Numbered from the stretch's first letter, positions 17,728-37,405 are shown. The stretch is DNA of 48,266 nt from a virus (IMGVR_UViG_3300034272_000895:1-48266), one strand, 5' to 3'. Program-made: numbers and translations. The notes: generated by a model from the letters alone, not told the origin.

Positions 17728-17805
17728 TTGTGTTGTTGTATTAAATTCTTGTGCAAGGTATGTATAATGATTTACCTGCGCAAACTTTTTCAACAAAACT
17801 TTTAG

Positions 17806-17878: not shown

Positions 17879-17882
17879 AAAG

Positions 17883-17944: not shown

Positions 17945-17950
17945 TTACCC

Positions 17951-19348: not shown

Positions 19349-19793
19349 CTTTGATAATTTTGATTGCTTCATCCACCTGCTTCTGGTTGCGGGGCAGGAA
19401 CAGCATGTAGTTGTGTCCTGTCTCCTGCAAGAAGTGAATGAACAGCTTCCAGCGCAGGTGAAAAGTATGTTGTGATGGAACGAAACCTTTGGTCTCGATT
19501 ACAAAGTTGTGCTTTTCTGACAGGAAGTCCGGTGTGTACGTGATGTCCCGGACCAGCTTGCCTGTGGCGTCAACCAAGTCAGCAGTCTTCGGAACGTTCT
19601 TGTAAATGCGCCCACTATATCGGATAGAATCTAACAAGCGAAAAGGGGCTGGCTCGTAAACGAACTCCAACCCCTCTTCCTTTAACCTTGTGTAGCAGTA
19701 GGCTTCTAGTAGCGACGAGAACTCTATTCCGTCAATCGTTTTTTTCTTTGACTTGACGGCTCCAGTGTTTTTTGTACGCCTCTGTTTTTTCAC
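19332..19793 (-). CDS. Endonuclease I-like (DUF1064) Holliday junction resolvase
   Basis: A 153-aa protein with GTG start. The PD-(D/E)XK order is clear: FSSLLEAYCYTRL (E30), a YEP strand, ITYTPDFL (D89), FVIETKG (E100-x-K102), then a helix with WKLFIHFL. This is the DUF1064/T7 endonuclease I-like pattern. Such enzymes cut branched DNA before packaging and aid host DNA breakdown. It sits just downstream of the primase/helicase, as in many phage replication modules. The basic N-terminus fits DNA binding. Confidence 0.75.
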   Translation of the reverse strand: MKKQRRTKNTGAVKSKKKTIDGIEFSSLLEAYCYTRLKEEGLEFVYEPAPFRLLDSIRYSGRIYKNVPKTADLVDATGKLVRDITYTPDFLSEKHNFVIETKGFVPSQHTFHLRWKLFIHFLQETGHNYMLFLPRNQKQVDEAIKIIKDANSH

Positions 19794-19796
19794 AAT

Positions 19797-21641: not shown

Positions 21642-21864
21642 TGTTGTTGATGTTTAGTAGTTCTTGTCGCTCTAGTTCAAATTCGAGGTGGGCAATCGCT
21701 TTGCGGATGTCCTGAGTTATTGGGTTGCCGGGCTTCTTACCGGCACGCATGATGTAGGTTAATGCTGTTCCCAAGTTGTAGTTGTCTCCTTGAAAGTCAG
21801 CCACAACTTTGCGGGCCTCGATGCCGTGTAGTGGTCCTACGTAGTAATCTGGAATTTTATTCAT
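21517..21864 (-). CDS. DUF3310 protein (T7 gp1.7-like)
   Basis: A 115-aa protein. Residues 4-72, with PDYYVGPLHGIEARKVVADF, NLGTALTYIMRAGKK and IRKAIAHLEFELER, match DUF3310, the domain in phage T7 nucleotide kinase gp1.7. The rest is a poorly conserved tail that overlaps the primase/helicase start. A role in nucleotide metabolism is inferred from the family. The overlap with the upstream gene is 8 nt. Confidence 0.75.
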   Translation of the reverse strand: MNKIPDYYVGPLHGIEARKVVADFQGDNYNLGTALTYIMRAGKKPGNPITQDIRKAIAHLEFELERQELLNINNNERNEFPSDLSIQCEGDEASPLSERWTGTVTYPFGEERIIS

Positions 21865-22099
21865 CTCCTTGTCTGCTTGTGGTTCCTATTTGTTTTTTTG
21901 AAAGAATCTCGACTACCATTACACTGGGCTTGACTTTGCTGTTGCTCCAGAAGTATTCGGCAATCCATTCTGATTTGTACATGTTGATTTCGCTGATGGT
22001 TTCGTATGAGGATACAAGCCAGCATTCCTTCTCGCCGTATTCTCGATTGGAGCGCTTGTATTTCACACGAACAATCATATAGTAGATTGGTCGTTGCAT
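21857..22099 (-). CDS. Hypothetical 80-aa protein after an internal terminator
   Basis: Start at 22099 (MQRPIYYMIVRVKYKRSNRE) was chosen, since the longer frame encodes the terminator hairpin. The ATG at 22078 is an alternative. Beta-strand-rich first half, then EWIAEYFWSNSKVKPSVMVV. It lies just downstream of a strong terminator, so expression depends on readthrough or an unseen promoter. Unknown function. Confidence 0.55.
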   Translation of the reverse strand: MQRPIYYMIVRVKYKRSNREYGEKECWLVSSYETISEINMYKSEWIAEYFWSNSKVKPSVMVVEILSKKQIGTTSRQGDE

Positions 22100-22111
22100 T
22101 AAAATGATTGG

Positions 22112-22139
22112 GTAAAAAGAAGGGGCACTAGGCCCCCTC
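22112..22139 (-). terminator. Rho-independent terminator after the SSB-tailed gene
   Basis: Minus strand GGGGC-CTAGT-GCCCC followed by TTCTTTTT, 2 nt past the SSB-tailed gene's stop. The 20-nt segment GAGGGGGCCTAGTGCCCCTT is identical to the terminator at 26857-26882 on the other strand. It lies inside the early operon. Confidence 0.75.
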
Positions 22140-22141
22140 AA

Positions 22142-22447
22142 TTAGAACGGGAGGTCGTCACCGCCGGCAACAGGAGCTTGAGCAGCCTGCTTTTGGGCGT
22201 AGTTGTTCTGCTGTGGAGCGTTGGCTGCACGCAAACGTGGGTCAATCACCTTCATGATAGCCTTACCGTTACGGGTAAACTCCACATTGAAGTTAATCCA
22301 ACCGGTGTCGGTTACGTACTTAAGGAGGTCAGAAGCCTGCTCCTTGGTGATACCAACCTCAAAACGAACGGTCGGTGACTTGACATTGCCCATAAGGACG
22401 CCGTCGTTCTTGTACTCTTTCTGCTGGTTATTATCTTGATAAGCCAT
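22142..22447 (-). CDS. Small protein with SSB-like acidic C-terminal tip
   Basis: A 101-aa protein starting MAYQDNNQQKEYKNDGVLM. The first ~65 residues form a short fold (FEVGITKEQASDLLKYVTDT, GWINFNVEF), then a Gln/Ala-rich flexible linker, ending GGDDLPF, the tip by which SSB recruits partner proteins. It lies in the recombination module beside the exonuclease. The N-terminal part lacks an obvious OB-fold signature, so it may be a diverged ssDNA-binding protein or a partner-recruiting mimic. Confidence 0.6.
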   Translation of the reverse strand: MAYQDNNQQKEYKNDGVLMGNVKSPTVRFEVGITKEQASDLLKYVTDTGWINFNVEFTRNGKAIMKVIDPRLRAANAPQQNNYAQKQAAQAPVAGGDDLPF

Positions 22448-22473
22448 GTTGAAATGAATAAAAATTAGACAGC

Positions 22474-23289
22474 CTAGATTGTTCCGTACAGCGCAAAGCT
22501 GCCGGTCTCCTTGGTGGGGCTGTTGAGCCACTTCCGGATATTTGTTACTGCACTCCAGAACTTCTCGCCACCGACTCCGATGGTGATTTCTGAAGCCTTG
22601 AAGACCCCGCAAAGATGCGGCACGGCTTTTTCCTGCACGACCCAGTAGAAGTCTTCTATCTGTTCGTGCTCCGTGTAGATGTACGCTTGAATATCGTAAT
22701 CGTAGCTGCGAACGTCATAATGAAATCCGTGTACGTCACGGGTTGTCTTGATGTCGCTGATGAATCCATCGCCACGGTTGTCAAGGAACCCCTTGACCGG
22801 GATGTCTCTAATCCACCCGTTGATTTCGTACTGCTTCTGACCACGCAGGTAAGAGCGAACAGAACGAATCTCTCCGGTGATTGGGTCGACCACCTCGCTC
22901 TCATCGAGTCGGATAATCATATTCTCAGCCCGCACTACGTCCTCCTCTGGGATGACCATAAGGCCCTTCTCTTCGGCGTACTTGTGTTCAGCCGCCAACC
23001 ACTCTTTGTACTTGTTGGTAGAGCGTGGCTGTTTGCCCCCAATCTCATCAACGATACCTTGGTCGTAGATGATGTAGTACTTCTCGGCTACCTTCTCTGG
23101 TGTTTCGAGCATAGTCTCGTACAGGTTGCCGAAGTCGAAGGCATCGGATTCCTTGCGGAGTAGCCCACGCATGTACAGCTCGAACTTCTTCATGTCCTGC
23201 TGTTTGCTGCCGTCGGCTGCGTACTTCAGTGCGGAGTAAGACAGGTAGCCTTTACCTGTCCGCTCCATGAGCTTTGCTGCGAAATCCAT
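22474..23289 (-). CDS. PD-(D/E)XK exonuclease (RecE/lambda-exo-like family)
   Basis: A 271-aa protein; the ATG at 23289 overlaps the SSAP stop by one base (TAATG), better than an upstream start. Motifs: FDFGNLYETML (about 50-60), GFLDNRGDGF with D170, SDIKTT (D179-x-K181) and YDIQAYIYT as the motif IV helix. These fit the PDDEXK exonuclease family (DUF3799-like) that resects double-strand ends. Together with the annealing protein it forms a Red-like pair for phage recombination and concatemer handling. Confidence 0.82.
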   Translation of the reverse strand: MDFAAKLMERTGKGYLSYSALKYAADGSKQQDMKKFELYMRGLLRKESDAFDFGNLYETMLETPEKVAEKYYIIYDQGIVDEIGGKQPRSTNKYKEWLAAEHKYAEEKGLMVIPEEDVVRAENMIIRLDESEVVDPITGEIRSVRSYLRGQKQYEINGWIRDIPVKGFLDNRGDGFISDIKTTRDVHGFHYDVRSYDYDIQAYIYTEHEQIEDFYWVVQEKAVPHLCGVFKASEITIGVGGEKFWSAVTNIRKWLNSPTKETGSFALYGTI

Positions 23290-23834
23290 TAGATGAACTT
23301 CTTCAGCGCTGCGAACTGCTTGTCGGTCCAAGAGGTGCCGTACTTAGAAAACACACGGTCGTATGCTTCCTGACGTGCAGCTGGGTTCTTGCCAGACTTG
23401 ATGTAGCTAACGGCTGCTTGGAACGGGTCGTCTTCAACTTCAGCTGGAGACTGGGCTTGGATAGTTGCCTGTACCTGCTGCTTTGCAATTGCAGTAGAAA
23501 CCTCGTCTGCTGTGGCGATGCTGGTGTCGATGCCGATGCCTAGCATGCCGAGGGCACGACCAACAGCTGACGTCTCACAGTTCTCGATGTACGAGGTGCG
23601 GTTGATGTTGGATGATGACTTCTCTTCGTGGGCAAATCCAGTGCTGATGATTCGAAGATTCTCGTCACGGACTACCGCACGGATGATGACAGACTCACTG
23701 TCGACTGCGTAGATTTCGGTTTCAAGGCTCATGCCTTTGAACTCGGGCAGGGTGCGAAACGCTTTGACACGCTCATTGACCTCTACGTACTGCTTACCCT
23801 TGATGTTTGTTGTCTTGAACTTGTGCTGACTCAT
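23289..23834 (-). CDS. Single-strand DNA annealing protein (Erf/Sak/Rad52-like)
   Basis: A 181-aa protein. VNERVKAFRTLPEFKGMSLE, then a beta block EIYAVDSESVIIRAVVRDE, then YIENCETSAVGRALGMLG (about residues 83-99), the signature of annealing proteins in Bacteroidetes phages. It anneals complementary single strands made by the adjacent exonuclease. The Gln/Ala-rich linker (about 117-135) leads to a C-terminal helical tail. Overlaps the upstream gene by 41 nt. Confidence 0.75.
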   Translation of the reverse strand: MSQHKFKTTNIKGKQYVEVNERVKAFRTLPEFKGMSLETEIYAVDSESVIIRAVVRDENLRIISTGFAHEEKSSSNINRTSYIENCETSAVGRALGMLGIGIDTSIATADEVSTAIAKQQVQATIQAQSPAEVEDDPFQAAVSYIKSGKNPAARQEAYDRVFSKYGTSWTDKQFAALKKFI

Positions 23835-24060
23835 GACTCCATTCGTATTTAATTAATTGATTGTTGTGGTGCGTTATCTCGTTATTGAGGTAATGCGTTG
23901 CCAAGGAGGCTGGAGCTGCGGAGCTGTAGTCATACCCACCTTGGTCTGCGATTAGTCGTGCCAATGCGCTCATGGCAATGTCTCTGTCTTTCTTATACTG
24001 CTTGACAGCTTTGTCCAGAGCTATAACTCTGGCATGCATAAACTTAATTGTCTCTTCCAT
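23794..24060 (-). CDS. Hypothetical 88-aa protein
   Basis: The ATG at 24060 (MEETIKFMHARVIALDKAVK) was chosen over an upstream frame that overlaps the neighbouring real gene. Helical first half, a loop with GGYDYSSAAPASLATHYL, then an Asn/His-rich tail. It precedes the annealing-protein gene with a 41-nt overlap. Unknown function. Confidence 0.55.
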   Translation of the reverse strand: MEETIKFMHARVIALDKAVKQYKKDRDIAMSALARLIADQGGYDYSSAAPASLATHYLNNEITHHNNQLIKYEWSHESAQVQDNKHQG

Positions 24061-24106
24061 TTCGTTGTGCGAATTTACTGAATTAATACCGGTCTTGCAA
24101 ACTTTT

Positions 24107-24271
24107 TCAACCAAAAGTTGAAACGTATGCTGCAAGAGTTTTGATGTTCTTGTGCTTGGTGGCGTGCTCGTAGTTGCCGTTGAAGTACTCGAGGTAGTGC
24201 TCACGCTTGAAGGCAAACCAGATTCCCTGATAGGGATTGTAGTGGAACAGATAGTCTTGAAGAGTTTCCAT
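24107..24271 (-). CDS. Small conserved phage protein (54 aa)
   Basis: Begins METLQDYLFHYNPYQGIWFA. The pattern FHYNPYxGxWxAFKRExYxEYxNG followed by ...KNIKTLAAYVS is a familiar small protein of Bacteroidetes phages, function unknown. It lies 27 nt past the zinc-finger gene and 46 nt before the next. Complete from ATG to TGA. Confidence 0.65.
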   Translation of the reverse strand: METLQDYLFHYNPYQGIWFAFKREHYLEYFNGNYEHATKHKNIKTLAAYVSTFG

Positions 24272-24298
24272 GTTATTTAGAATCGTTTTAAATAGTGA

Positions 24299-24859
24299 TT
24301 AAGAAAGTGCCTGCTCTAGGTCTTCGATGGTGTAGCCTGCGACCTTGAGGCCCCGGCGGAATTCTGTCTTCTTGCCTCGTGGGATGGCGAGAGAAACAGC
24401 AGTGCTGAACACGTTTGATGTCTGGGCCAGCACGATGTAGATGGGGAACGAGCAGTAGATTTCTCCAGAGCTTAGGTCCTCAACGAATCGGTGGAATAAT
24501 CGCTTGTATGCAACCTCGTCGTAGTCTCCGGTCATCCATCCGTCTGAAATCAGGATGTGGTCGCTGTTAATCTTGGCGTCAACGAAACCACGGTATCCAC
24601 CTGTTGACGTCCAGCTGGCTGACTCCAGTGGGTCTGGGGCTCCGTCTTCATAGTCTCCACGCTCTAGGTCCATGTGCTGCTCGAGCACGGTGTTATAGAG
24701 AATCTTGACGGGCTCTTCGCCGGTTTCGTACTTCATCACGGTAACAGAGTCGTTCCATGATTCATTCTCGCAGGTCTCGCAGAGAGGTTCACCTTTTTGG
24801 TCGTGGTAGAACAGGTCCTCTTCGAGGATTTCTGTTTCGCAGCAGTTGCACTTATACAT
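24299..24859 (-). CDS. Zinc-binding-type protein (186 aa)
   Basis: The start at 24859 (MYKCNCCETEILEEDLFYHD) follows the gene upstream with an 8-nt overlap. An N-terminal zinc ribbon has Cys4/C6/C7 ... C27-x2-C30. The middle (about 60-150) is an unrecognised mixed domain with YRGFVDAKINSDHILISDGW and the C-terminus ends GYTIEDLEQALS. Binding to nucleic acid or protein is likely; the role is unknown. Confidence 0.6.
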   Translation of the reverse strand: MYKCNCCETEILEEDLFYHDQKGEPLCETCENESWNDSVTVMKYETGEEPVKILYNTVLEQHMDLERGDYEDGAPDPLESASWTSTGGYRGFVDAKINSDHILISDGWMTGDYDEVAYKRLFHRFVEDLSSGEIYCSFPIYIVLAQTSNVFSTAVSLAIPRGKKTEFRRGLKVAGYTIEDLEQALS

Positions 24860-25073
24860 TGTGAAGTTCGTTTGTGTTAGAGTCAAAGATTCGTTCGGTG
24901 GTGTGGACTACTTCCCCGTTGAGTTTCGCTGGGGCGCTGATGTGGTACTTGCCATTCCCAAGGCTCTTAACCTTGAAGGATGCGAGTGTCTGGCCAAAGA
25001 AGCGCAGGGTATCTTTCGAGAAGAAGTAAGGGGCTGTCGACTGCGTGCGTCGTTTGATTTCGTAGATGGTCAT
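24852..25073 (-). CDS. Conserved 73-aa phage protein
   Basis: MTIYEIKRRTQSTAPYFFSK followed by LRFFGQTLASFKV is a widespread small protein of phages and prophages (the YFFxxxTxxFFG pattern), with unknown role. The 8-nt overlap with the downstream gene and 9-nt gap upstream place it in the early operon. Confidence 0.65.
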   Translation of the reverse strand: MTIYEIKRRTQSTAPYFFSKDTLRFFGQTLASFKVKSLGNGKYHISAPAKLNGEVVHTTERIFDSNTNELHNV

Positions 25074-25082
25074 GGCTGATGA

Positions 25083-25277
25083 TTAATAGAATAGGGACAT
25101 AAGTAGGCTCTCGTCTTCTGGGGTGCCGACACGGAACGAAGACTCGTCAACTTCGAGCGTCCCCTCAGTATGTGCCCAGCGCTTTTTCGCTTGAGCAATG
25201 GCGGAACGCTTTGACGTAGCGTACACTTGGTTCCAGCCACCTCCGACGAAGTGGTATAGATACTGTTTCTTTTTCAT
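25083..25277 (-). CDS. Small 64-aa hypothetical protein
   Basis: Begins MKKKQYLYHFVGGGWNQVYA, basic middle (SAIAQAKKRWAHT), ending PEDESLLMSLFY. The FVGGGxNxVYA...TPEDExLLxSLFY layout recurs in small Bacteroidetes phage proteins. The stop-start overlap with the upstream gene is 4 nt (ATGC/TGA type). Unknown function. Confidence 0.6.
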   Translation of the reverse strand: MKKKQYLYHFVGGGWNQVYATSKRSAIAQAKKRWAHTEGTLEVDESSFRVGTPEDESLLMSLFY

Positions 25278-25501
25278 GCTTTGTAGAGTTCGACAGTTTG
25301 ACTTATACCTGACTCACGCAGGTTCATTATGTAGATGAAAGCTGGCACCTGCTTGGCTCCGAACTTGGTGAGCTCGAACACTCGCTCGTGGAATCCACGC
25401 TTGGTGCGATTGGCCCGGATGACGTATGAGGTTCCGCACTTTAGCATAACAGCACATACGTAGGCGGTGTCTTTAGTGACTTTGATTTGCTTGTGGTTCA
25501 T
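25274..25501 (-). CDS. Hypothetical 75-aa protein
   Basis: Begins MNHKQIKVTKDTAYVCAVML; a short beta-rich basic protein with RANRTKRGFHERVF. It overlaps the next gene by 4 nt. No family is recognised. Confidence 0.55.
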   Translation of the reverse strand: MNHKQIKVTKDTAYVCAVMLKCGTSYVIRANRTKRGFHERVFELTKFGAKQVPAFIYIMNLRESGISQTVELYKA

Positions 25502-25523
25502 GGCGTTGTTGGTGTGTTTAAGT

Positions 25524-25742
25524 TTAGAGTTGTACTAGGGTTTTGTTTTTGCAATCCAGAACGTATCGAGATTTCTTTCCGTTCGAGTCAAGCTCAGCCC
25601 AGAGGTCCTCGCTTGTTTTGCGGTACTCGTATTGTCCGCTCAGCTTGAAGAGAATGAAGTCCTCGGGGATATCTAGTTTGGTGTCAATGCTGAAGAACTG
25701 GTAAGAGCCTTCGAAAAGCTGTAGTGTGTTGATTGAGTTCAT
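25524..25742 (-). CDS. Hypothetical 72-aa protein
   Basis: Begins MNSINTLQLFEGSYQFFSID; contains SGQYEYRKTSEDLWAEL and ends KNKTLVQL. Acidic beta-rich. 3 nt separates its start from the stop of the upstream small gene at 25746. Unknown function. Confidence 0.55.
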   Translation of the reverse strand: MNSINTLQLFEGSYQFFSIDTKLDIPEDFILFKLSGQYEYRKTSEDLWAELDSNGKKSRYVLDCKNKTLVQL

Positions 25743-25745
25743 GGT

Positions 25746-25901
25746 TTATTGAATTAAAGATTCTACTACAATTGGATTTACGGTACCGTACTTACGGTGG
25801 AACTTGTTGAGGGTGCGCTCTGCTTTGGCGAACTCAGTCTTATTGACTGGGAACTGGTAGTTGCGAAGTGCGGAACGCAGGGTAGATAGCTCTGTCTTCA
25901 T
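25746..25901 (-). CDS. Small 51-aa hypothetical protein
   Basis: Begins MKTELSTLRSALRNYQFPVN, then helical and basic (KAERTLNKFHRKYGTVN), ending ESLIQ. Complete ATG to TAA, with 3 nt to the next gene. Unknown function; the position is second in the early operon. Confidence 0.5.
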   Translation of the reverse strand: MKTELSTLRSALRNYQFPVNKTEFAKAERTLNKFHRKYGTVNPIVVESLIQ

Positions 25902-25932
25902 GTTCGTGAATTAAATGTTGATGAAGCGCTCA

Positions 25933-26163
25933 TCAGTTAACCTTGTGTCCTTTCGGAACCCATTGCATCGGGTAAACTCTATACCCAGTGTGCAGGTCGT
26001 CAAGGCCGCCGCACATAGACAGGTGGTTGCAGTATTTTGTGGCATCCTCTTGAGATACGAACGCCTGTTGCAATTCGGATTTCAATCCTGCGAAAATCTT
26101 TCCTTCCCGTGACGGGACATAGTAAACACCCCATGCTACGATTTTATTATCTTGATTGTTCAT
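25933..26163 (-). CDS. First early leftward gene, hypothetical 76 aa
   Basis: The start at 26163 (MNNQDNKIVAWGVYYVPSRE) was chosen because the longer frame runs into the candidate promoter at 26194-26225. The pattern of a Gly/Trp N-terminus, then GKIFAGLKSELQQAFVSQED, then GYRVYPMQWVP has no recognised family. As first gene after the early promoter, it may act early in infection. Confidence 0.55.
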   Translation of the reverse strand: MNNQDNKIVAWGVYYVPSREGKIFAGLKSELQQAFVSQEDATKYCNHLSMCGGLDDLHTGYRVYPMQWVPKGHKVN

Positions 26164-26193
26164 GTCGCTGTTGGTATTAGTTGTTCGACAGGA

Positions 26194-26225
26194 CAACGTT
26201 ACGGCGAATATTTGAACTGCACAAC
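26194..26225 (-). promoter_or_regulatory. Candidate early leftward promoter
   Basis: Minus strand GTTG (26225-26222), 20 nt, TAACGTTG (26201-26194): one mismatch in each box from TTTG / TAnnTTTG with ideal spacing. It would start transcription about 25 nt before the ATG at 26163 and is back-to-back with the DnaA-like gene's promoter. Confidence 0.5.
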
Positions 26226-26301
26226 ACTATGCACAAAAAATTTTTGTTGAAATGCGTAAGTCGTTGATAATGAGCGAGAAAAATTTTAGTTTACCAACAA
26301 T

Positions 26302-26333
26302 TTGTTTATTACTGCTAGTCGGGCTACATTTGC
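26302..26333 (+). promoter_or_regulatory. Bacteroidetes-type promoter for the DnaA domain IV gene
   Basis: TTTG (26302-26305), 20 nt, TACATTTG (26326-26333), a full consensus match, 19 nt before the ATG at 26353. Coordinates may be off by one because the line was read by eye. Confidence 0.75.
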
Positions 26334-26352
26334 AGACTAATCAATTTCAATC

Positions 26353-26838
26353 ATGTCTAAAGGAGAAGAACTAGAACTACTCGAGCGCATCCGCACATTC
26401 TTTGGTGTGGACGTGACTGTAAAGAACCGAGCTCGCAAAATCGTAGACGTCAAACACTCGTTCGCACACGCCATGCGGGACATGGGATATACCTATGAGT
26501 ACATAGGACAGCTAACCAATCGTGACCACGCTACCGCAATGCACAGCTGCAAGACCAGCCAGATGCTGTCCGACACAGACCGGGAGTACAGCAAACTGCT
26601 GAACGCAATGCGCACACTGATTAACGACTTTCACATATCGTACGGGCTGCGTAGCACAAAAGCATATGAGCGTGACCGTGTATCGTTTGCAAAGCTGTAT
26701 GCGCTTTTGCTTCGTAGGTCATCGCCATTCTTGACTGAAAAGGAAGTACTGAGCTGGTTAGAGGTAGCGAAGATGTCTGAATTTCAATACAAGAACCTCA
26801 GTCGAACATCTGAGGAACCGGTGCCCGGGTTACAGTAA
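26353..26838 (+). CDS. Stand-alone DnaA domain IV-like protein
   Basis: A 161-aa protein on the rightward strand. The first ~90 residues fit DnaA C-terminal DNA-binding domain IV: helix ERIRTFFGVDV, the basic RARKIVDVKHSFAHAMRDMG helix, then the DnaA-box recognition motif NRDHATAMH (56-64; bacterial DnaA: GRDHTTVLH). There is no AAA+ ATPase. A helical C-terminal extension (about 95-161) is unassigned. Such proteins are candidates to bind DnaA-box-like sites at an origin or at promoters. It has its own full promoter and terminator. A near DnaA-box CTATGCACA lies upstream at about 26227-26235. Confidence 0.75.
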   Translation: MSKGEELELLERIRTFFGVDVTVKNRARKIVDVKHSFAHAMRDMGYTYEYIGQLTNRDHATAMHSCKTSQMLSDTDREYSKLLNAMRTLINDFHISYGLRSTKAYERDRVSFAKLYALLLRRSSPFLTEKEVLSWLEVAKMSEFQYKNLSRTSEEPVPGLQ

Positions 26839-26856
26839 GTAGAACTACCTACCTAC

Positions 26857-26882
26857 GAGGGGGCCTAGTGCCCCTTTTTTTA
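26857..26882 (+). terminator. Terminator of the DnaA domain IV gene
   Basis: GGGGC-CTAGT-GCCCC followed by a run of eight T, 18 nt past the stop. Identical for 20 nt to the early-operon terminator at 22112-22139. Confidence 0.8.
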
Positions 26883-26948
26883 TTGCCACGAGAAGCAGGA
26901 CAGCTAGCACAGCTGCCATCGCATTCCTGAGGTTTGGTGTCACAGTAG

Positions 26949-27374
26949 TCAGACTCCTGTTGACCTCCGGATGATTCTAACTGCAATTGCTATCAGTAAA
27001 AGTCCGATGAGTCCCCAAAAGGTAAACGACTGAACTCGCTGAAATTTAGTTGGTCCAACACTGACTTGAGGGACAGCGACTTTAATCTCTCGATAAATTG
27101 TGTCAGCATCGCAACCTCCGTCAATCATTAATGTATCAAAAGAGCGAACGATTTTTAGGCGGAACTTGTCCTTTACGATTTCGATTGTATCCCTTTGCTT
27201 TAGAATCGTTGTATCCCGTACAACAATTGGCTCGGTAACAACCGTGTCCATGACAGTCACCGTCTTCGTCGTGAGTAACGACGGGTCTTTTCTTAACGCC
27301 TTTCTTAGGTGCCATTCGGCTGAGCACCCAGTCAGCAAGAGGGCTAACGTAGCCCCCCACAAAACCTTCATCAT
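26949..27374 (-). CDS. Unimolecular spanin-like lipoprotein
   Basis: A 141-aa protein with an N-terminal lipoprotein signal, lipobox L14-T-G-C17, a mostly beta/coil periplasmic part (DTVVTEPIVVRDTTILKQRD), and a C-terminal membrane helix (about 116-134, FWGLIGLLLIAIAVRII). An outer-membrane lipid anchor plus an inner-membrane helix in one chain is the u-spanin design (phage T1 gp11), which fuses the two membranes in the last lysis step. The AEWHLRKALRKDPSLL segment recurs in such lipoproteins of Bacteroidetes phages. ATGA overlap with the 3344-aa gene. No holin or endolysin recognised nearby. Confidence 0.65.
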   Translation of the reverse strand: MMKVLWGATLALLLTGCSAEWHLRKALRKDPSLLTTKTVTVMDTVVTEPIVVRDTTILKQRDTIEIVKDKFRLKIVRSFDTLMIDGGCDADTIYREIKVAVPQVSVGPTKFQRVQSFTFWGLIGLLLIAIAVRIIRRSTGV

Positions 27375-30300
27375 TCCAGATATTTTTGTTCGACCTTTTC
27401 ATATTCTAGTTTCCATTCAAACCTTGGCTTGAGGCTAGGCATGCGACCAAAAGGTGCCTTAATCGTACGCTGTCCTCTGTTGTAATCATTGTACAAATCT
27501 ACAATCATTTCAGCCTTTTGTTCATTGGTGGCTTGCTTGTAAGAATTACCATTGAATAGGTTCTCAAGTAGTTCACGCTTGCCTTGACCGTGGACTTCTT
27601 GGATGCGCTGCATCTCTTGTCTCCACTCCTCTTCAAGCTTAGCATTCCAGCCCTTAATCTTCATTCCGTCTGGAGTTTCAGATGGCAAGTAGGTAAGCTT
27701 GGTCGGGAACTTGGGTGCAACGTCCGGCTCCTCGGTGGCTTGGTAAACACTCCACAGCTCGTTCCAAACCATGTCATCCTTAGTCTTGGAAGATTTAGTA
27801 AAGTCAACGAGGTTGTAGTACCAGCTGTTTGCTCCTTCTGGGGTCTGAGGAATCTTAGCTCCCAACGGGTCAACCTTAACCGGAATTCCATCCACGTCGA
27901 ACATACGGTCCATCACCACGTACTTGAACTTAGTGAGCACATTGTCTGACTTGATGTTCGGCATGTACTCACGCTGTCCACGGTGTACGGCAGACAGAGT
28001 ATTTGGGAGCGGGATGGCGGTGAGCGCACGGAACGTGTTCTCCATCCACTTCTCCACGTCACGCTCTGACGCCTCCCCGGAAAGCACATTGAGTAGGCTG
28101 TTCGTTCCGGCCAAGAAGCTCTGCTCGTTCATGAACTGAAGAGTAGATAGCGGCATAGACATTTGGTCCCAGATAAACTGAGCTGGCTTGAACATTCCCT
28201 CTTCGCCTACGTAGTAGCCGTCCTCGTCTGGCTTGCCACCGGCACGCTTAACAGCATTCGCACGAGCACCCAATACCATACCCGGGATTCCAAGCTTGTC
28301 GTAGCGGATGATGCGGTCACCGTCACGGTATGCCGGGTCTTCTCCATTAATCAAACGAGCAAGGGCATCCTTGTTCAGCGTTGCTGGTGGTTGCTTCAGG
28401 TAGGCGATTGCACGCTCACCTTCGTCCTCGTCATCAAATGCAGCAGAAATAATCCCGTTCACGATGAGGTAGTTGGCAGCTGCAATAATCATCTGGCCCA
28501 TGGTAGCTTTTGCAAGGTCTGACGAGCCGCCTTCGAAGTCCTTCTTGAAGAACTTATCTGTAGCAGTTGCAACACCGTAAGCCGGCAGTGCAAACTTCAT
28601 CGTCTCAGAGAAGATGTTAGCCGGGGTCTTGACGTATGGCAACGAAACCTTGAGCATGAACTCAATCATTGGTCCGACCAACGGAAGCTTTCCTGACTGC
28701 TTCTGGATAGAGAAGATTAGGTTGGCAGCTTGGTTGTCCTGCTGGAACGTAATAGTCTGTCCTGCTTTCTGAGCGGCAGCCATGGCCTTCTTGCTTGGGT
28801 ACTTCAAGAAGTTGCGACGAGCATCACCCTTAAGTCCAAGCTTGTTCGCCTCTTGAGCGAGCTGCATGGCCTCAGAGAATCTGAAGAACGGCTTATCACC
28901 CAGAGACAGGAATCGGAACATCACCTCAGGGGCTGCGCCTAGAAGACCTTCGTACAGAGCCTTTGCCCGGTCAGCAGCAGCAATATTTCCGTTAGCCAAG
29001 CGAGACAGCACGTCACCCTTGATTACTTCTTTACCGAACGTAGAGTTCACGACTGACGCAAACTTGGTGTCAGACAGAGCAGCCAATAGAGCGGCACCCG
29101 GCATGAATCCAGTGTGCACGATTTTGTCTGAGGTAGCACCACCCTTAATGATGATTTCAAAGGCTTCCATTACCCCGACACCACCTTGCTTAAGAGCATA
29201 TGGCAAAGCGGTAACAGATGCACTAAACGAACGAGGAGCCTTGCCCGTGAAGGCAGAAGTAATCTTGCTGAACAGAGTCTCAAATCCCTTGACCGGGATA
29301 CTGGTCAACATCTGAATCAAGTTGGCGCCCACGTTGGTTACCTGTGATATTGGCGTGAGCAGGTTGCCTTGAACAGTGGTAGACAAAAGGTCCATCACAT
29401 TCTTTGGAACTATAATGGACGTGAACAGATTAAGTTCACGAGTCACCTTATCAAGTTCAGCAATTGCTTTCTTGAGTCCAGCTTCCTGCTCGGCGCTATA
29501 GACTAGCTCAATCTTATCACGGAGCTCCTTCGCTTTCTGTTGTGCTGCGATGAAACGTGAAGCGATTTGGGTGAGTCTCTCCTCCTGCGTTGGAGTCATT
29601 ACTCTGTTCGCTCTTTTCAGTGCGGCACGGATGGTCTCAACGATTCCCATTGGGCTGCTAGACTTGAGCTCAGCGAAGTGGCGAAGCATGCGACCTACGG
29701 TAGTGCCGAGAACAGACAAGTCAACTAGAAGCTCAGACACATCCTCACCAGCCTCGACCTTGCGGTTGATGAGTTCGATGGCAGCAAGAACAGAAATGTC
29801 ATTCTCACTACGTCCCGGCGCAGCGGTGCGGCTGATAGTGTTCAGTCCGTCGGCAGTCATGTTTTCCAGAAGCTCGTCGTCTGTCATGTTCTCAAGGTTG
29901 TCCTTGATGGCCTTAAGCGACTGCTTGCTGTAGTATGCTTTCGGGTTATTCATCACACGAGCACGAGTCTCTGGTGAGAATCGGTTGATGGTGCGTGAAA
30001 TAGTCTGGCGCAGGTTAGATGCGCCTTCGTCTACAGAGAAGTAGACCGGGCTTCCGTCGGCATCGTTGTAACCTTTTACTTCGAATCTAGGGTCGTTCAG
30101 CTTGGTGTATACCGGGTTCTTTGCGTAGACCAGACCTCCGATTTGGATTACCTCCTCAGCAGCTACGACTGGACGGGCTGTCTTGCGGTCGTAGAAGTAG
30201 CTAGCACGAGTTGGGTTCATGCCGATTTGTTTCCACTCTGGACTGTTCCAAATCTTAGACACAATGCGCTTTGCTGTTTCTGCTCGCTCGTCTGGATTCT

Positions 30301-33300
30301 TTCCTTCAAGAGCTGCATACTTACCGAACATGCGTCCGATGGTTGACTTCGCCTGACCGGCTGCGATGTTGAGTGCTGCAAGTGGGTTTGACTTGAACAC
30401 TACGTCGGTGATACGAGCTACGTTCTGGTATGAAACCACCTTGCCGTCGTTCTTAGTTCCGTCGTGTACAGAAACAACCCACGTATTGGAGTTGATGTAT
30501 GCGGGGATATCTAAACGAAGGGCAACAGTCTGTCCTTCTTTCACCGGGGCATTAAGGCTAGGCACCTTATCCTTGCTCAGCGCTGAAGCCATACGCTCTT
30601 GAGTTGCTGGGGCAAAGAACTTAGTGATAGGCTCAACCGGCGACAGCATGGTCACCATTTGACGGAACTCATCGTTGGTGATTTTACCGTCACGAAGTTC
30701 CTGTGCAGCCTCTTCAAGCTGTGCATCACGGCGTGAGATTGCTGGGTCTCCCTTGCCTTCTGGGCTTACAAACCAATCAACACCACCTTCGTCTACAGAA
30801 AATCTAATTGGCTCTTTATTCGTTGGAAGTTCGGTCTCCCAGATAGAAGCGTACTTTATGTGATAGTATTCTCCAGCTTTTTTCTTTAGCTCTTCAACCT
30901 TCTGTTTACTTATGACTTGAGTCGGAACACGGCTCCATCCTTTTTTGTATACAGACTTATTATCTCTTGCTGCGCCAAACTCCACACGAACAGGAAGGTG
31001 CGTCATTCCAAGGTTCATTGCGGCCAAAACCCTATGGTTTCCCTCGCCAATCCAGCCGTATCCTTCGTTGTCAATATCAACATATATAGACTGGTATGAG
31101 TCATTAGTGTTGTATCCTTTAGTAATGAAGCTATCTGAAAGTTTTTTTACAAGCTCTTTATCTGACGCTAAATCATAAAGACCACTCCGGTTGCCGCCCC
31201 TCATGTCCATGAGGTTGTAAAGCTTAGACACAGGAACATATGCAATTCCACCGGTGGGTATGTCTGTACTCCTGTTGGCGGGCTCCTCATTTACACCCAT
31301 CTCAACATTAGCAAAATCTATTCTGCTTTCGTCGACAGAGAAGTACGTTTCACCGTCTTCTTCTCCAGACTTGACGTTTAAAATTGCTCTAGATAGTTGC
31401 TCTACGCTAGGCTTAGAACCGTCTCCAGTAAGCTGTTCAGCTCTTCTTGCGACAGATTCTCTAGCGGGCTCTCCGGGTTGTTTTCTTGTTGCATTTTTTA
31501 TTTGTTCTTCAGTTATACCATTCTCAATAGCCAAACGCTTAGCTGCGCTTTCGTAGTCTGGCTGTTCGTTATCACTTGTTTCAGTAGCTCCATCAGCCTC
31601 TTCACGCCCCTCTTGGAATGTTTGGTAAAGAGCCTTTTCTGGGTACCAGTTTACAGCTTGCAGGTCAGCAATAGTAATTTCAATACCAGCATCTTCTCTT
31701 AGTCTACGCTGAACCTCGTTGAATACACCAACAATAAACTTACGTTGATTGCCTCCGCTCGGAGCCTCGACCTCGCCACTGCTATTCTTGGATAGGCTGT
31801 TTCCTGCTTTTCTAAGTTCGTCAAGTGCCGGGGTAGAAGACAGCATATCACGCTTGTCTTTCTTGATTGACGCCTTGTTGATTGCGTGCGAGAGCTCGAC
31901 AACATTGAAGGATTTATAGTCTGGAATTACAGACGCTAATGTTTTCTTTTCAGAAGCGGTCAGCGAACGCAATGCCTGATTCAATCTCACCTTACCGGAC
32001 TTGATTTTCACCGGGTCAATATCGAGCAGAGTTCCGGTCAGTCTACCGTATTGACGCATAAACCAACGGTCCATTGTGAGCTGGTCAAACTGGCCGTACA
32101 GATTCATAAAGAATCCGTTGCCAATCTTAGCTCCAAAAATAGAAGCGCCATACACCTCTGTGTCAACCGTGAAGCCAGAAAGAAGTGGGGTTTTCTTTCC
32201 ACCCTTAATGTACTTGAGGTCACCAGCGTTGAACTTAGACGTCAAGAAAGTAGCAAAGTTCTCCATAGACATCTTATCAAGTACCATGTTGGTAAACTTG
32301 AAAGTGTCCTTAATTCCCTTTGACTGGGTGCCAATAGAGTATTTGCTATCGAACTTACCGTACTTTTTGTAGTACTTATACTGACGGTCAGCTTCTTTGA
32401 AGTTGTCAAATACCTTGTTACCGTTTGATGTAACGGCAACAGCAATTTTAAACGCAGCTTGAGCGGCAACGTCAGTCTCCAGCTCCGGATGAATCAAAGA
32501 CATGGTGGCCATTGCAGCCTTGGTCTTTGCGTCATACCATCCTAGTGCATCAGGGTAAGACTGAATAGCTACTAGTGTTTCGTTGATGTATGAATCAACT
32601 AGGTAGTTAGCCAATGCATTGTCGTACGTTTCAAAAGACTTGATTCCGTACTGCTTCTTTATTTCTTTCTCGTAAGACTTGAACCTGTCCTGAAGCGCAG
32701 CTTTGAAGTCAAGCTTGTTACTGAATGCAGACTCTGATGCAAACGAAATAGCGTTCTTAATACTATTTGGAGAATCAATTGTGACCGACGGAATATCATC
32801 CAAAGAGAAGTCGATGGTGTCTTTTGCCACTACTGACAATGAGCCTCCCTGAACAGACTCAGCGTCAAGAAAATCCTTACTGTCTTTTATGATTACAGCA
32901 TCAAGGACCGAAGCATTCATTGGCTTTAGTCGGTTAGATGCTTGTTGACGCATTAACATGACTTCAGCCTCATCGGTTCCAAAAATGATAACGGCCTCAC
33001 CGTACCGACCAACATCGGCGACCACATCACGCATCTTGATTTTCATCGGAGCATTTGGGTCAACGATGGCAGAGTATGTGATTTCACCTTGGTTGTTCAT
33101 CACAAAGTATCCAAGCTTTTCGTGGCGGCCACGCTTTAGCTTAGACAGGAACGCCGCTACATCATTAAAGGTCTTAATCTGTGTGCGCTCAGAGCTTGGG
33201 GTGTACAGTATTTGCCTATTGAATGAGTATGTGTCGTACGGAACTTCCTGCTCAGGGGAAACTCTTTGAGATGGCAATGAACCGTAATTGTTATCGTCAG

Positions 33301-36300
33301 TAAAAACAACAAACCTACCGCTGTCAAGATTTATAATAACTCCATTGCCTACCTCTGCACCGGTGCCTTTGAATATTTCTTTTAAGGTGCTTAACATATT
33401 AGCGTCAGCTTTAGACGGGCGAAGGGTTCCGGATGGGTGATTGTGGACCAGAGTGATTACGAGCTCTGAGGTACCAAGGTCCTCTGCAAAGTTCTGATAT
33501 GCAGCCGCAATAAGTTTAGCATCAACCGTTGCTGAGGTAGTTCCACCTGTCCCTAGCCATTGAACACGGAAGTCTCCATTGAGCGGGTTGTGATATGTTA
33601 CAAAAGCGTTCTCAGATACAGCGCTCTCAAGGTGACGGAACAAGAATGCTACGTCTGATGCATCACGAATCTTTTCAACGCCAGTGAACATGAACATTGG
33701 GTTCTTTTCCAGAACACGCTCAGCGTAGGTAATTTCACGAACCTTAGCACGAGTACCAACAGCAAACTCTGGGTTTGAGTTGGCGAACTTAACCGTTTCC
33801 TTGCCATCACGGATAACGGCCTCTTGGTCGGTAGAGAACTGAATCTCGTCGTAGTCGTTAGTAACAAATGCATCCGGGAGCAAACCAATCTTCTGCTCAG
33901 CAAAGCGCATCATATCGTACACTTGACTGACGAGCTGCTTAGCTTCTTCAGTGCGGCCTTCTTCACGAAGTTTGCGGGCCTTGTCACGGAGCTTGAATGC
34001 TTCGTCGTTGACGCCAGAGAAGTTCACCCAGCTGTTCTGTCCTCTTGTCTCAGAGGTCATAGCCTTACGGGCAAGTGGCGTGTACATGCGTGAGTGTGCA
34101 TCCCATGCGTTCTCCTCGCCTAACGGGCCGAAGCTGTTGCCTCGCTCCGCATGACCAAAGAAGTCGTGCACAAAGCGGAACACGTCATTAACCAGAAGCA
34201 CGTTGCCATTTGAATCAGTGTAGCCAGAGTCACGCAACAGCGGATTCTCTGCACGCTGGTCGTCAGTAATGGGGGTGTCTCCAAAGCCAGCCTCGGTGCT
34301 GAAGATGCGCATCGTCTTGTTGCTGCGCAGGTCCTCAATCATTTCTTGGCTGTTGTTGTACGGCTCTTCGTTATTTATTTCAACCTTGTAGCCTCGCTCG
34401 AGGATAGCCTCGTACTGAGCAATGGTCTCCTTCGCCATGGCGTCATAAGCCTTCTTGACCTCTGGGTCAGTTGGGTCGTTGCGCATAGCATCGTAAGCCT
34501 GACCAATCTGCTTGGCTCTTTCCTTGTCCAGCTTTAAGATTTTCTTGCCCTTGCGGTATGGCAAGTTGTTCTTGGTCATGTAATCTTGAATGACCTCATC
34601 GACACCTTCGAGCGGCTCGTTGAACAAGCGTGAACCAGCTGGGGTGCTGTCCAAAGATGCTTGGATGCTACGGGCTTGGTATGCAGCGTTGGTCTTAGGA
34701 AAGACAACAGACTTACCGGTACGGGTAGCAAGGTCGATGTTGCGTGCCATCGTGTACAGGTCTTGGTCGGACTCAAGCTTGATGTCCACGCCCATACGAA
34801 CGAATATCTCGTTAAAGAAATCCTTCAGCTTTTGCTTAAAGCTTCGGTCGAAGTTCTTGAGTCCATCTGGCTGAGCCACAAGAGCAAAGAACTCTGTAAC
34901 TGTTTCGTTCTGTTGCTTGCCTTCAGCATACTTCTTACCAAAGCGAACAGCACGTTGAGCAAGGGCGTTGCCTTTGTTGGCCATCTCTTCAATCTCGGTA
35001 AACAGTCGGCCCTGAACTTCTGCGTCCTCGGTGATTAGAGTGTTTACGACTGGGTGGACCACCTCGTGTACGTACTGCTTAGCGTACGAAATGTCGCTGC
35101 CGGTGGCTGCGTTGTACTGCTCTACAGCTGTGCGGCTGAGGACGTGGAACTCGTTGGTGCTGTTGTTCCAGTACGCCTTTGCGGTACCCTTGCCGTCAAC
35201 ATACATCTGAGCAGCTGCCGGGTTGCTGTTGAGTAGAGACTCAAGGCTGTTGTGCACAACCACTTTCGAGTCTTTGTCAACGGCGTTCTTAGCCACGTTG
35301 AAGATGCGGTTCATCTCAGCTGCATCCTCTTCTGATATCTCAGCGGTCGGACGGATATTTCCAATAGAAGAAACTGTGCTGTTGTCTTTCTCTGGGGATA
35401 CGATAGCACGACCGGCTGGGTCTACGGTGAATACAGGCTGAAAGAACTGGGGCTCTACTTCTGCTTGAGGTGTTTGAAGAACTCCACTTGGCGCAGTCTT
35501 TTCAGAGCTTGTTCCTTGCTGGAATACTTGCCCAACGATTTCCACTGCTTGGACAGCACCTGATACTGGTTGTTGCGTTTGGCTATCATAAACCTCTTGG
35601 ATTTGTTGGTTGATGGCGTCTACCTTCTGCTTGACACGCTCTTGAATAGCTTCGTCTTTGCCGGCAACGTTCTTTTGTAGGCCCTGCTTTTGGGCGATGA
35701 GCTGGAAGATTTGATACTTGGCTTGGTCGGTAAGCTCCTCTGGGATTTTAGCGGCGGCATCCTTGAACTCCTGAACACGGTTAAGCGTGCTCTTAGCTTC
35801 GTCCTCTGTAATGGTTCCGTCAGCTACCTGCTTGTCAAGGTACTCGGCGACACGCTCAGTCTTGATGTTCTGTGCGAAGTTGATTCCAAGGTCGAACTCT
35901 TCCTTGGTCATGTCTAGTCCGGGCTTCCGGAATGCTCCGATAGTACCAGAAATAATGCCACCACCTACAGCTTCCTGCGCACCGGCGTATAACACATCCG
36001 TTATAATCTCCTTAGCGGTCTTCGTCTTGAATACGTGCTGGCCCTGTGAGTCGGTGACGTAGTTGTTGATGAGGTCATTTGAAAGCTGCTGTAGTGCGCC
36101 AGTCTCGAACTCGGACATAGCACCAGCTGCCACCTTGCGAACGTAACCACCAAGGCCACGAGCTTCTTCTTTTACAATCTTCTCGAATGCCTCGGCTCCG
36201 GCATCATCGCCAAGACCAGCTAGACGAGTTAGGACCTTACCGGCGAGAGCACGCTTGAGCATAGGGTTGCCCTTAAGCGTATTGCCAAGACCCACCTTCT

Positions 36301-37405
36301 CCAGAACTCCTTCGATGCCAGCAACAGTAAGTTTGTAGGTCTCCTGCTCGGCCTTGGTCATCTCTAAGTTTGGATTCTCGGCAAGCTGGATGGCAAGCTG
36401 TTCCTCAGCTCCGTTGTAGGCCATATCGAAGAACGACATACCCAAGGTGCTCTTTGATGCAGCCATAGCTGGAAGCGAAGAAGCTAGGCCACGTACAGCC
36501 CCAGAAAAGAAGCGGTCCTGCAATTCCTTCTGTACCTTCTCGTCAATCTCAACACCAAAGTTTTCTATAGCCTTGTCACGTCCTTTTTGACGGATGTACG
36601 GAATGATTTCGTTCTCAATCTTGCTGTCCTTACGCCAGAACTCAGTGTATGCCGCATTGGCTGCGATGCCACGGGCAAACTCTTCGTTGTAGCCACGGCT
36701 CTTTGCGTCTTCAAAATTCTTCTGATACAAGTCATAAAGCTCTGGCTTTGAGCTCTCGCTATCCTCGATGAAGTCAGCTATGGCATTGCCGTTAAGGCTT
36801 GCCTCGTCACGAACATTTGATGCGAATCCCTCGAGACCCTCGATGAGTCCATTCCACTTGTCGCCAAACCAGTCGCCAACAGTGATTTCTGGGGCTGCCT
36901 CTTGAACTGGGGCTGTTTGTACTTGCCCGCTCAGGACACGCTCTTCTACTTGCTGACGTGCTTCAGGGGACAGCGTTGGAGTATCAGAATAAGTAACCTC
37001 TCCGGTGCGCTTATCACGAGCTACGACATTGCCTTTTTTGTCCTCGATATACTCTACTTGTGGTCCCGGCTTTTGCGGGATAGGAAGCTTAGACTCAGCG
37101 GGAACTTCTCCGAAAGCCTTGCGTAAGTTCGGAGCAAGAGTTGGCTCAGGTAATGGTAAAGCCGAAGGAACACGTTCTTTTTCGACCCGAGGTGCTCCAG
37201 CTGAAGGTGATACCATAGAAGCCGCTGGTGCTCCAGCTCGCTCTGATGGTTGGGCTGTGCTTGGTCTTTTTTTTTTTAGTTCACCAAGCGCCACATCAAT
37301 AGAGCCTTGGTCGTAACCATTAACGCCCATGATGTATGATACCCTTTCATCGGAAAGATTCTCAGCTAGTGCTCGCTCTAGGAGCTTCAGTACCTTCTCG
37401 TCCAT
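27371..37405 (-). CDS. Giant polyvalent virion protein (3344 aa)
   Basis: A multi-domain protein likely carried in the virion and delivered with the DNA. In order: Pro-rich N-terminus (1-170); helical part (about 170-700); a zinc metallopeptidase-like HEVVH (780-784) with later NETVTEFFAL; a conserved HDFFGH block (1080-1085); a RadC-like JAMM domain with H1321-N-H1323-PSG ... D1334; an unassigned helical domain (about 1540-1850); a ParB/Srx-like domain with WIGEGNHR (2118-2125); a beta domain (about 2210-2450); and a C-terminal segment of hydrophobic helices (about 2670-3190) resembling large polyvalent protein domain LPD38. Domains are separated by FSVDE-like linkers at 1190, 1533, 2022, 2202 and 2456. 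Likely roles: DNA ejection channel plus counter-defence enzymes. Confidence 0.8.
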   Translation of the reverse strand: MDEKVLKLLERALAENLSDERVSYIMGVNGYDQGSIDVALGELKKKRPSTAQPSERAGAPAASMVSPSAGAPRVEKERVPSALPLPEPTLAPNLRKAFGEVPAESKLPIPQKPGPQVEYIEDKKGNVVARDKRTGEVTYSDTPTLSPEARQQVEERVLSGQVQTAPVQEAAPEITVGDWFGDKWNGLIEGLEGFASNVRDEASLNGNAIADFIEDSESSKPELYDLYQKNFEDAKSRGYNEEFARGIAANAAYTEFWRKDSKIENEIIPYIRQKGRDKAIENFGVEIDEKVQKELQDRFFSGAVRGLASSLPAMAASKSTLGMSFFDMAYNGAEEQLAIQLAENPNLEMTKAEQETYKLTVAGIEGVLEKVGLGNTLKGNPMLKRALAGKVLTRLAGLGDDAGAEAFEKIVKEEARGLGGYVRKVAAGAMSEFETGALQQLSNDLINNYVTDSQGQHVFKTKTAKEIITDVLYAGAQEAVGGGIISGTIGAFRKPGLDMTKEEFDLGINFAQNIKTERVAEYLDKQVADGTITEDEAKSTLNRVQEFKDAAAKIPEELTDQAKYQIFQLIAQKQGLQKNVAGKDEAIQERVKQKVDAINQQIQEVYDSQTQQPVSGAVQAVEIVGQVFQQGTSSEKTAPSGVLQTPQAEVEPQFFQPVFTVDPAGRAIVSPEKDNSTVSSIGNIRPTAEISEEDAAEMNRIFNVAKNAVDKDSKVVVHNSLESLLNSNPAAAQMYVDGKGTAKAYWNNSTNEFHVLSRTAVEQYNAATGSDISYAKQYVHEVVHPVVNTLITEDAEVQGRLFTEIEEMANKGNALAQRAVRFGKKYAEGKQQNETVTEFFALVAQPDGLKNFDRSFKQKLKDFFNEIFVRMGVDIKLESDQDLYTMARNIDLATRTGKSVVFPKTNAAYQARSIQASLDSTPAGSRLFNEPLEGVDEVIQDYMTKNNLPYRKGKKILKLDKERAKQIGQAYDAMRNDPTDPEVKKAYDAMAKETIAQYEAILERGYKVEINNEEPYNNSQEMIEDLRSNKTMRIFSTEAGFGDTPITDDQRAENPLLRDSGYTDSNGNVLLVNDVFRFVHDFFGHAERGNSFGPLGEENAWDAHSRMYTPLARKAMTSETRGQNSWVNFSGVNDEAFKLRDKARKLREEGRTEEAKQLVSQVYDMMRFAEQKIGLLPDAFVTNDYDEIQFSTDQEAVIRDGKETVKFANSNPEFAVGTRAKVREITYAERVLEKNPMFMFTGVEKIRDASDVAFLFRHLESAVSENAFVTYHNPLNGDFRVQWLGTGGTTSATVDAKLIAAAYQNFAEDLGTSELVITLVHNHPSGTLRPSKADANMLSTLKEIFKGTGAEVGNGVIINLDSGRFVVFTDDNNYGSLPSQRVSPEQEVPYDTYSFNRQILYTPSSERTQIKTFNDVAAFLSKLKRGRHEKLGYFVMNNQGEITYSAIVDPNAPMKIKMRDVVADVGRYGEAVIIFGTDEAEVMLMRQQASNRLKPMNASVLDAVIIKDSKDFLDAESVQGGSLSVVAKDTIDFSLDDIPSVTIDSPNSIKNAISFASESAFSNKLDFKAALQDRFKSYEKEIKKQYGIKSFETYDNALANYLVDSYINETLVAIQSYPDALGWYDAKTKAAMATMSLIHPELETDVAAQAAFKIAVAVTSNGNKVFDNFKEADRQYKYYKKYGKFDSKYSIGTQSKGIKDTFKFTNMVLDKMSMENFATFLTSKFNAGDLKYIKGGKKTPLLSGFTVDTEVYGASIFGAKIGNGFFMNLYGQFDQLTMDRWFMRQYGRLTGTLLDIDPVKIKSGKVRLNQALRSLTASEKKTLASVIPDYKSFNVVELSHAINKASIKKDKRDMLSSTPALDELRKAGNSLSKNSSGEVEAPSGGNQRKFIVGVFNEVQRRLREDAGIEITIADLQAVNWYPEKALYQTFQEGREEADGATETSDNEQPDYESAAKRLAIENGITEEQIKNATRKQPGEPARESVARRAEQLTGDGSKPSVEQLSRAILNVKSGEEDGETYFSVDESRIDFANVEMGVNEEPANRSTDIPTGGIAYVPVSKLYNLMDMRGGNRSGLYDLASDKELVKKLSDSFITKGYNTNDSYQSIYVDIDNEGYGWIGEGNHRVLAAMNLGMTHLPVRVEFGAARDNKSVYKKGWSRVPTQVISKQKVEELKKKAGEYYHIKYASIWETELPTNKEPIRFSVDEGGVDWFVSPEGKGDPAISRRDAQLEEAAQELRDGKITNDEFRQMVTMLSPVEPITKFFAPATQERMASALSKDKVPSLNAPVKEGQTVALRLDIPAYINSNTWVVSVHDGTKNDGKVVSYQNVARITDVVFKSNPLAALNIAAGQAKSTIGRMFGKYAALEGKNPDERAETAKRIVSKIWNSPEWKQIGMNPTRASYFYDRKTARPVVAAEEVIQIGGLVYAKNPVYTKLNDPRFEVKGYNDADGSPVYFSVDEGASNLRQTISRTINRFSPETRARVMNNPKAYYSKQSLKAIKDNLENMTDDELLENMTADGLNTISRTAAPGRSENDISVLAAIELINRKVEAGEDVSELLVDLSVLGTTVGRMLRHFAELKSSSPMGIVETIRAALKRANRVMTPTQEERLTQIASRFIAAQQKAKELRDKIELVYSAEQEAGLKKAIAELDKVTRELNLFTSIIVPKNVMDLLSTTVQGNLLTPISQVTNVGANLIQMLTSIPVKGFETLFSKITSAFTGKAPRSFSASVTALPYALKQGGVGVMEAFEIIIKGGATSDKIVHTGFMPGAALLAALSDTKFASVVNSTFGKEVIKGDVLSRLANGNIAAADRAKALYEGLLGAAPEVMFRFLSLGDKPFFRFSEAMQLAQEANKLGLKGDARRNFLKYPSKKAMAAAQKAGQTITFQQDNQAANLIFSIQKQSGKLPLVGPMIEFMLKVSLPYVKTPANIFSETMKFALPAYGVATATDKFFKKDFEGGSSDLAKATMGQMIIAAANYLIVNGIISAAFDDEDEGERAIAYLKQPPATLNKDALARLINGEDPAYRDGDRIIRYDKLGIPGMVLGARANAVKRAGGKPDEDGYYVGEEGMFKPAQFIWDQMSMPLSTLQFMNEQSFLAGTNSLLNVLSGEASERDVEKWMENTFRALTAIPLPNTLSAVHRGQREYMPNIKSDNVLTKFKYVVMDRMFDVDGIPVKVDPLGAKIPQTPEGANSWYYNLVDFTKSSKTKDDMVWNELWSVYQATEEPDVAPKFPTKLTYLPSETPDGMKIKGWNAKLEEEWRQEMQRIQEVHGQGKRELLENLFNGNSYKQATNEQKAEMIVDLYNDYNRGQRTIKAPFGRMPSLKPRFEWKLEYEKVEQKYLE

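Follow-up and report, generated by a model that had tools for sequence, protein, structure and literature searches.

Short peptides that recur almost unchanged at the domain borders of a very large phage protein raise the question of whether they are recognised as protein, for instance by a protease, whether they mark the points at which domains are exchanged, or both. The case comes from a viral record in IMG/VR (IMGVR_UViG_3300034272_000895), a linear fragment of 48,266 bases, the whole of which is here called the window. A preliminary description had reported a giant ORF punctuated by FSVDE-like peptides, proposing either cut sites of a maturation protease or a recombination-friendly linker through which enzyme cassettes are swapped. 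The ORF is a real frame of 3344 amino acids on the minus strand (Table 1), and the peptides, referred to below as linkers or seams, can be followed from it into a larger set of related proteins.

By its muzzle genes (PF25731, E 7e-20, and PF25729, both crassvirus-type), portal, terminase and gene order the phage is, on gene content, crAss/elemovirus-like, an assignment that is not a formal placement within Crassvirales. PHROGs for the portal and the large terminase are matched in the window and capsid genes are also present; the terminase is 39-46% identical to those of elemovirus-like Flavobacterium phages and of a Manatee Spring podovirus, with further matches in Cellulophaga and Bacteroides phages. 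The window also carries a tRNA-Arg gene (anticodon tct, 17805-17878, minus strand). The muzzle gene is followed by two mid-size genes and then by the giant ORF, in a slot matching that of the cargo genes gp45-gp47 of crAss001, whose gp45-gp50 are the crassvirus cargo proteins (PMC10172136); the cultured phage elemoA has a 3694-aa 'structural protein' at the corresponding point of its gene order. Because these genes hold the same position, the window giant is probably virion cargo, a prediction drawn from gene order and the annotation of a cultured relative. It resembles crAss001 gp45-gp50 in giant size and in its place after the muzzle (PMC10172136), and differs in that gp47, gp49 and gp50 are RNA-polymerase related and lack a strong seam, whereas no RNA polymerase domain was detected in the window giant (P0001). 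With gp21 of elemoA (a Flavobacterium phage, elemovirus, NC_055852) it shares the zincin-like domain (E 2.7e-49), although that protein lacks a strongly recurring seam and the remaining modules of the window giant were not detected in it. In tblastn searches with residues 1-935 and with the last 666 aa of the giant no annotated phage was matched.

With RadC, ParB-like, L5_gp82-like and zincin-like domains and the modules M2 and M4 predicted in one chain, the giant is, from its domain content, a phage polyvalent protein. Such proteins were described from phages and conjugative elements; it was proposed that they are injected alongside the DNA and free their domains by autoproteolysis, and MPTase-like HExxH domains were suggested as the cutters (Iyer et al. 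2017, PMC5512222). Both those proteins and the window giant are giant multidomain chains with HExxH, RadC, ParB-like and unnamed modules; RadC, which Iyer et al. 2017 list for polyvalent proteins of conjugative elements only, is found here in a phage protein, in the window and in its nearest relative.

Table 1. Parts of the giant protein and its linkers, with positions in the window.
Feature	Residues	Position	Strand	Basis or remark
Giant polyvalent protein, 3344 aa, predicted virion cargo		27371..37405	-	ORF; position after muzzle
N-terminal conserved region	265-632	35510..36613	-	common to related giants
Zincin-like domain	698-901	34703..35314	-	HEVVH at 780-784 and NETVTEFFA
Module M2	932-1178	33872..34612	-	phrog_3170 family
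RadC/JAB module	1225-1524	32834..33733	-	PF04002 E 5e-9
Module M4	1537-1996	31418..32797	-	also in freshwater podoviruses
ParB-like module	2028-2199	30809..31324	-	phrog_1033 E 3e-4; missing in L001
Module M6	2220-2455	30041..30748	-	kin of Pfam Phage_L5_gp82 / phrog_586
Conserved C-terminal block	2479-3315	27461..29971	-	
Linker 1, FSTDQ	1190	33824..33838	-	M2/RadC border
Linker 2, FSLDD	1533	32795..32809	-	RadC/M4 border; extra L001 module sits here
Linker 3, FSVDE	2022	31328..31342	-	M4/ParB-like border
Linker 4, FSVDE	2202	30788..30802	-	ParB-like/M6 border; L001 lacks all between linkers 3 and 4
Linker 5, FSVDE	2456	30026..30040	-	M6/C-terminal border

The pattern FS[VTLI]D occurs in the protein at exactly the five positions first noted (1190 FSTDQE, 1533 FSLDDI, 2022 FSVDES, 2202 FSVDEG and 2456 FSVDEG) and nowhere else, against 0.14 occurrences expected from composition and a maximum of 2 in any of 2000 shuffles. 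FSVDE, found three times against 0.003 expected, is its most recurrent 5-mer. The peptides had been called near-identical, which suits the last three copies, whereas the first two are looser. Their position at domain borders was borne out: with the modules placed by HMMs, one copy lies at each junction of the series M2, RadC, M4, ParB-like, M6 and C-terminal block, and the two N-terminal junctions of the giant have no copy. At the DNA level the last copy, TTCTCTGTAGACGAAGG, shows 1-2 mismatches to the other two FSVDE copies, and the window holds 4 matches to it at no more than 3 mismatches, against 0.11 expected. Setting aside two antisense frames within the giant gene itself, no other plausible ORF of the window contains the peptides. 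AlphaFold modelling of residues 2010-2475 puts the linkers at 2022 and 2202 in segments of pLDDT <50 and predicts that the one at 2456 begins directly after the final strand of folded M6. This last adjacency, together with a hydrophobic-x-F pattern common to some lineages, would suit an explanation by structure intrinsic to the modules, i.e. the strand or cap that closes each fold, or by chance; however, five unrelated modules of this one protein share one seam in a number of copies far above chance.

The nearest relative, L001, encodes a relative of the giant from residue 615 onward and differs from it by whole modules. The ParB-like module, which two FSVDE copies enclose in the window giant, is exactly what L001 lacks, and only one linker, GETFFSIDEGVDWF, stands between its M4 and M6. 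An additional module, about 400 aa long, occupies the place of the one FSLD linker of the window giant, with FSLD flanking the insertion on both sides. The extra module (L001:2774-3991) has no Pfam or PHROG match. Over the last part of the locus (L001:5477-18893 versus window 17374-30793, 13.4 kb) the two DNAs are 99.6% identical, while the remainder of L001 is 75-80% identical to the window; the switch is abrupt, near residue 2275 inside M6, and may reflect phage recombination or an assembly chimera. That the module differences are themselves an assembly artefact was considered and rejected: both fall within the diverged part, flanked left and right by diverged DNA, and are thus independent of the 99.6% joint.

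Viral contigs were scanned with alignments of M2, M4 and M6, which gave 240 loci and, together with loci fetched earlier, 179 non-redundant giant ORFs. A blind search of these for short repeats that stand apart in the chain and have unlike surroundings revealed that many giants bear a border peptide that recurs in them and is their own: FSR.Q (5-6 copies; L126, L130, L258), FSRR (5 copies; L091), QFMPAE (3-4 copies; L243, L246, L252), IRMQAP/LRFQAP (4 copies; L102), AAEQRV (8 copies; L186), an LDAR-type peptide (6-7 copies; L067), ISFRIDE (4 copies; L163), KM..GGEI (7 copies; L173) and FSNR/FSQRA (L154, L169). IKFQK (L058) is another such peptide, and there are weaker RFSL and LYSK examples in prophage relatives. 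Significant repeats (p<1e-5) were found in 126 of the 179 giants versus 62 of 192 control ORFs from the same loci, a comparison that is a rough guide only because protein lengths differ between the sets; the top control repeats, judged by eye, are tail-fibre-like or low-complexity. Of the non-redundant giants with 2000 aa or more, 11 reach p<1e-8, while 76 fall short of 1e-6, so the strong form of the seam is a minority, and none was found in elemoA or in the RNA polymerase proteins of crAss001. The window motif itself escaped a blind scan with four fixed residues because its copies vary. FSVDE as a universal linker was rejected: it is absent from distant homologues of the single modules, and the total of [FY]S[VILMTA] over the 179 giants is not raised (614 versus 672). 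The refuting condition of the preliminary description, homologues without the linker, thus had an unexpected outcome: distant homologues do without FSVDE, yet these often have another recurrent peptide at the same borders.

The seams were compared with module borders in 19 linker-bearing giants, using homology segments to other giants at <70% identity and 500 random shifts. Only 10.6% of the segments cross a linker, versus 69.8% at shifted positions (47.8% in the lowest of the 500 shifts), and 2086 segment ends lie no more than 20 aa from a linker, where 345 are expected. Linker-bounded module indels recur in several phage pairs (RFMPE-[169]-RFMPE, IKFQKT-[173]-IKFQKT and FKKQK-[176]-FKKQK), but when 24 independent module indels were collected without bias, only 5 had peptides that match at both ends (p<0.05), RFMPE, FSVDE, FKKQK and IKFQKT among them. 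In the pair L229/L235 the DNA joint lies inside the linker codons, TTCATGCCAGA, the left side tracking one copy and the right side the other. The proposal of a linker across which cassettes are exchanged is thus directly supported, with modules present or absent between linkers in L001 and in other pairs and a joint within linker codons.

The seam goes with the protein that receives a module. After M6 the window protein has FSVDE, while other giants have QFSMGNR (L194), LRFQAP (L102), FSR.Q (L126/L130/L258), IKFQK (L058) or an FSNR-type peptide (L154/L169); M2 and M4 are likewise followed by seams specific to the host protein, and in relatives with the same C-terminal block the seams around M4 differ protein by protein. 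The post-M6 seams reach a mean BLOSUM sum of 20.3 when set against the remaining seams of the protein they belong to, versus 5.8 under permutation (p=2.5e-5). In flanks kept out of motif discovery, the motif of the own protein appears in 7 of 32 cases (0.014 expected), all of them in the FSR.Q and AEQR lineages, and another protein's motif in 1 of 468. Gains and losses of modules fall exactly at the seams, and the sequence of a seam is a property of the host protein and not of the module; the interpretation of seams as cassette borders is supported. An end strand intrinsic to the module is rejected on the differing seams after the same module, and since one module family has different seams in different proteins, at the significance just given, explanation by module structure or chance is highly improbable.

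A seam of this kind might owe its identity to DNA alone: short direct repeats that recombine and are homogenised by copying, with a peptide that nothing recognises. We tested for synonymous codons shared among seam copies by permutation, chosen because pairs of copies are not independent. Sharing exceeds chance in AEQR (112/161 versus 62), in FSVDE (27/39 versus 16.9, p=0.0085) and also in FSR.Q, FSRR and FMP, which favours exchange at the DNA level and speaks for recombination as the whole explanation, as do the L229/L235 joint within linker codons and the linker-bounded module indels. Against this, LDAR (30/107 versus 35), RxQAP (16/29 versus 16) and IKFQK retain the peptide with codons at chance level, which points to constraint on the protein; the M4-M6 joint of L001 differs silently from both copies in the window protein; and the repeats are just about 11-17 bp long. 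Recombination as the only role of the seams is accordingly unlikely, though it keeps a substantial share of our expectation. A putative protease site would be the best reason for peptides that are identical where their codons are not, and cleavage at the seams is plausible on this sequence evidence.

We propose that a constant N-terminal part with the zincin-like domain and a constant C-terminal block would enclose a variable row of effector modules, with the FSVDE peptides as the seams of that row. The peptide would be recognised as protein, most likely as a cut site that frees the modules, the cutter being either the zincin-like domain of the chain itself or another protease, and identical seams would double as short direct repeats for recombination. 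As every seam has the same short sequence, a module arriving between two seams would at once be releasable. This joint reading, a polyvalent cargo protein whose seams serve both as putative cleavage sites and as recombination repeats, we rate as evenly poised between right and wrong. A more specific version, held tentatively and with more doubt than belief, is that each phage lineage pairs a private punctuation peptide with a protease to match it, which is probably the zincin-like domain of the same chain, with captured modules gaining the peptide at both ends and the specificity of the two co-evolving.

The candidate cutter has features consistent with an active metallopeptidase: across 38 homologues the HExxH positions are invariant or at least 90% conserved and the downstream Glu (E155/E159) is at least 90% conserved. 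An AF2 model (pLDDT 79, pTM 0.73) predicts helices placed to suit the HExxH and the second-helix Glu. The domain has no Pfam peptidase match, and a fold search of the PDB with the model gave no confident match, the best being an M61 aminopeptidase at E 1.2. Giants with strong seams have HExxH in 11/11 cases versus 60/76 for the others, a difference that is not significant (p=0.20).

A protease acting more widely would be another way of reading the seams as cut sites. Proteases of jumbo phages and T4 cleave many head proteins at short motifs, so that there is precedent for a general protease of head maturation that would process several virion proteins in trans while the particle assembles. For jumbo phages the case is that of SPN3US gp245 (PMC10052503). 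The seam peptides are, however, missing from the other ORFs of the window and from those of 17 related loci (about 70,000 aa), which favours action within the giant over a general virion protease and led us to set aside a general site; moreover, the crAss001 structure paper has no mention of proteolysis, cleavage or a protease (PMC10172136), and no protease gene was identified among the window ORFs tested. We regard this source of cleavage as improbable. Recognition without cleavage, the peptide being a tag on each module for a packaging or ejection partner, or a docking or unfolding signal that imposes a pause during extrusion through the tail, would suit a probable cargo that must traverse the tail, and one tag per module with a host-specific sequence might fit a partner-specific interaction. 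Yet the N-terminal junctions lack the tag, we know of no docking or packaging partner for such peptides, and the observations would suit a cleavage site just as well; we give this reading little credence.

Iyer et al. 2017 make no mention that we could find of a 'linker' or a recurrent border peptide (PMC5512222), and no earlier description of such linkers was found in the literature searched, which was mostly without subscription journals and preprints. As far as searched, phage-specific seam peptides are thus a novel trait in an already described class of proteins. Rhs proteins, CdiA with its VENN motif and MARTX toxins likewise exchange cassettes at a conserved junction, with proteolytic release in some, and have one junction, or a motif or cleavage residue common to the family. 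The seams would differ from these in being repeated many times and specific to each phage protein. To our knowledge there are no cut sites established in polyvalent proteins, and none appeared in the literature searched; the seams, easily found by sequence, offer candidate sites in many phages and make the old question of whether giant cargo proteins are cut or reshuffled a testable one. They also allow module borders to be called automatically and specificity to be compared with the accompanying zincin-like domain, and they reveal how phages build new combinations of effectors. Were cutting confirmed, they would be a possible source of diverse short protease sites; and a private peptide with a matching protease, if true, would amount to a polyprotein system of bacterial viruses in which protease-site specificity diverges phage by phage.

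Further recurrent peptides were seen among the relatives. The M2-bearing proteins of L076 and L093 contain 3-5 copies of a longer repeat, KYNENHDARGQFS/NPNHD, which is unlike the seams in kind, and a related podovirus (L282:741-12320, MW202828) encodes a 3859-aa giant, annotated as 'reticulocyte binding/rhoptry protein', with a weak recurrent peptide of the IFKQQD type.
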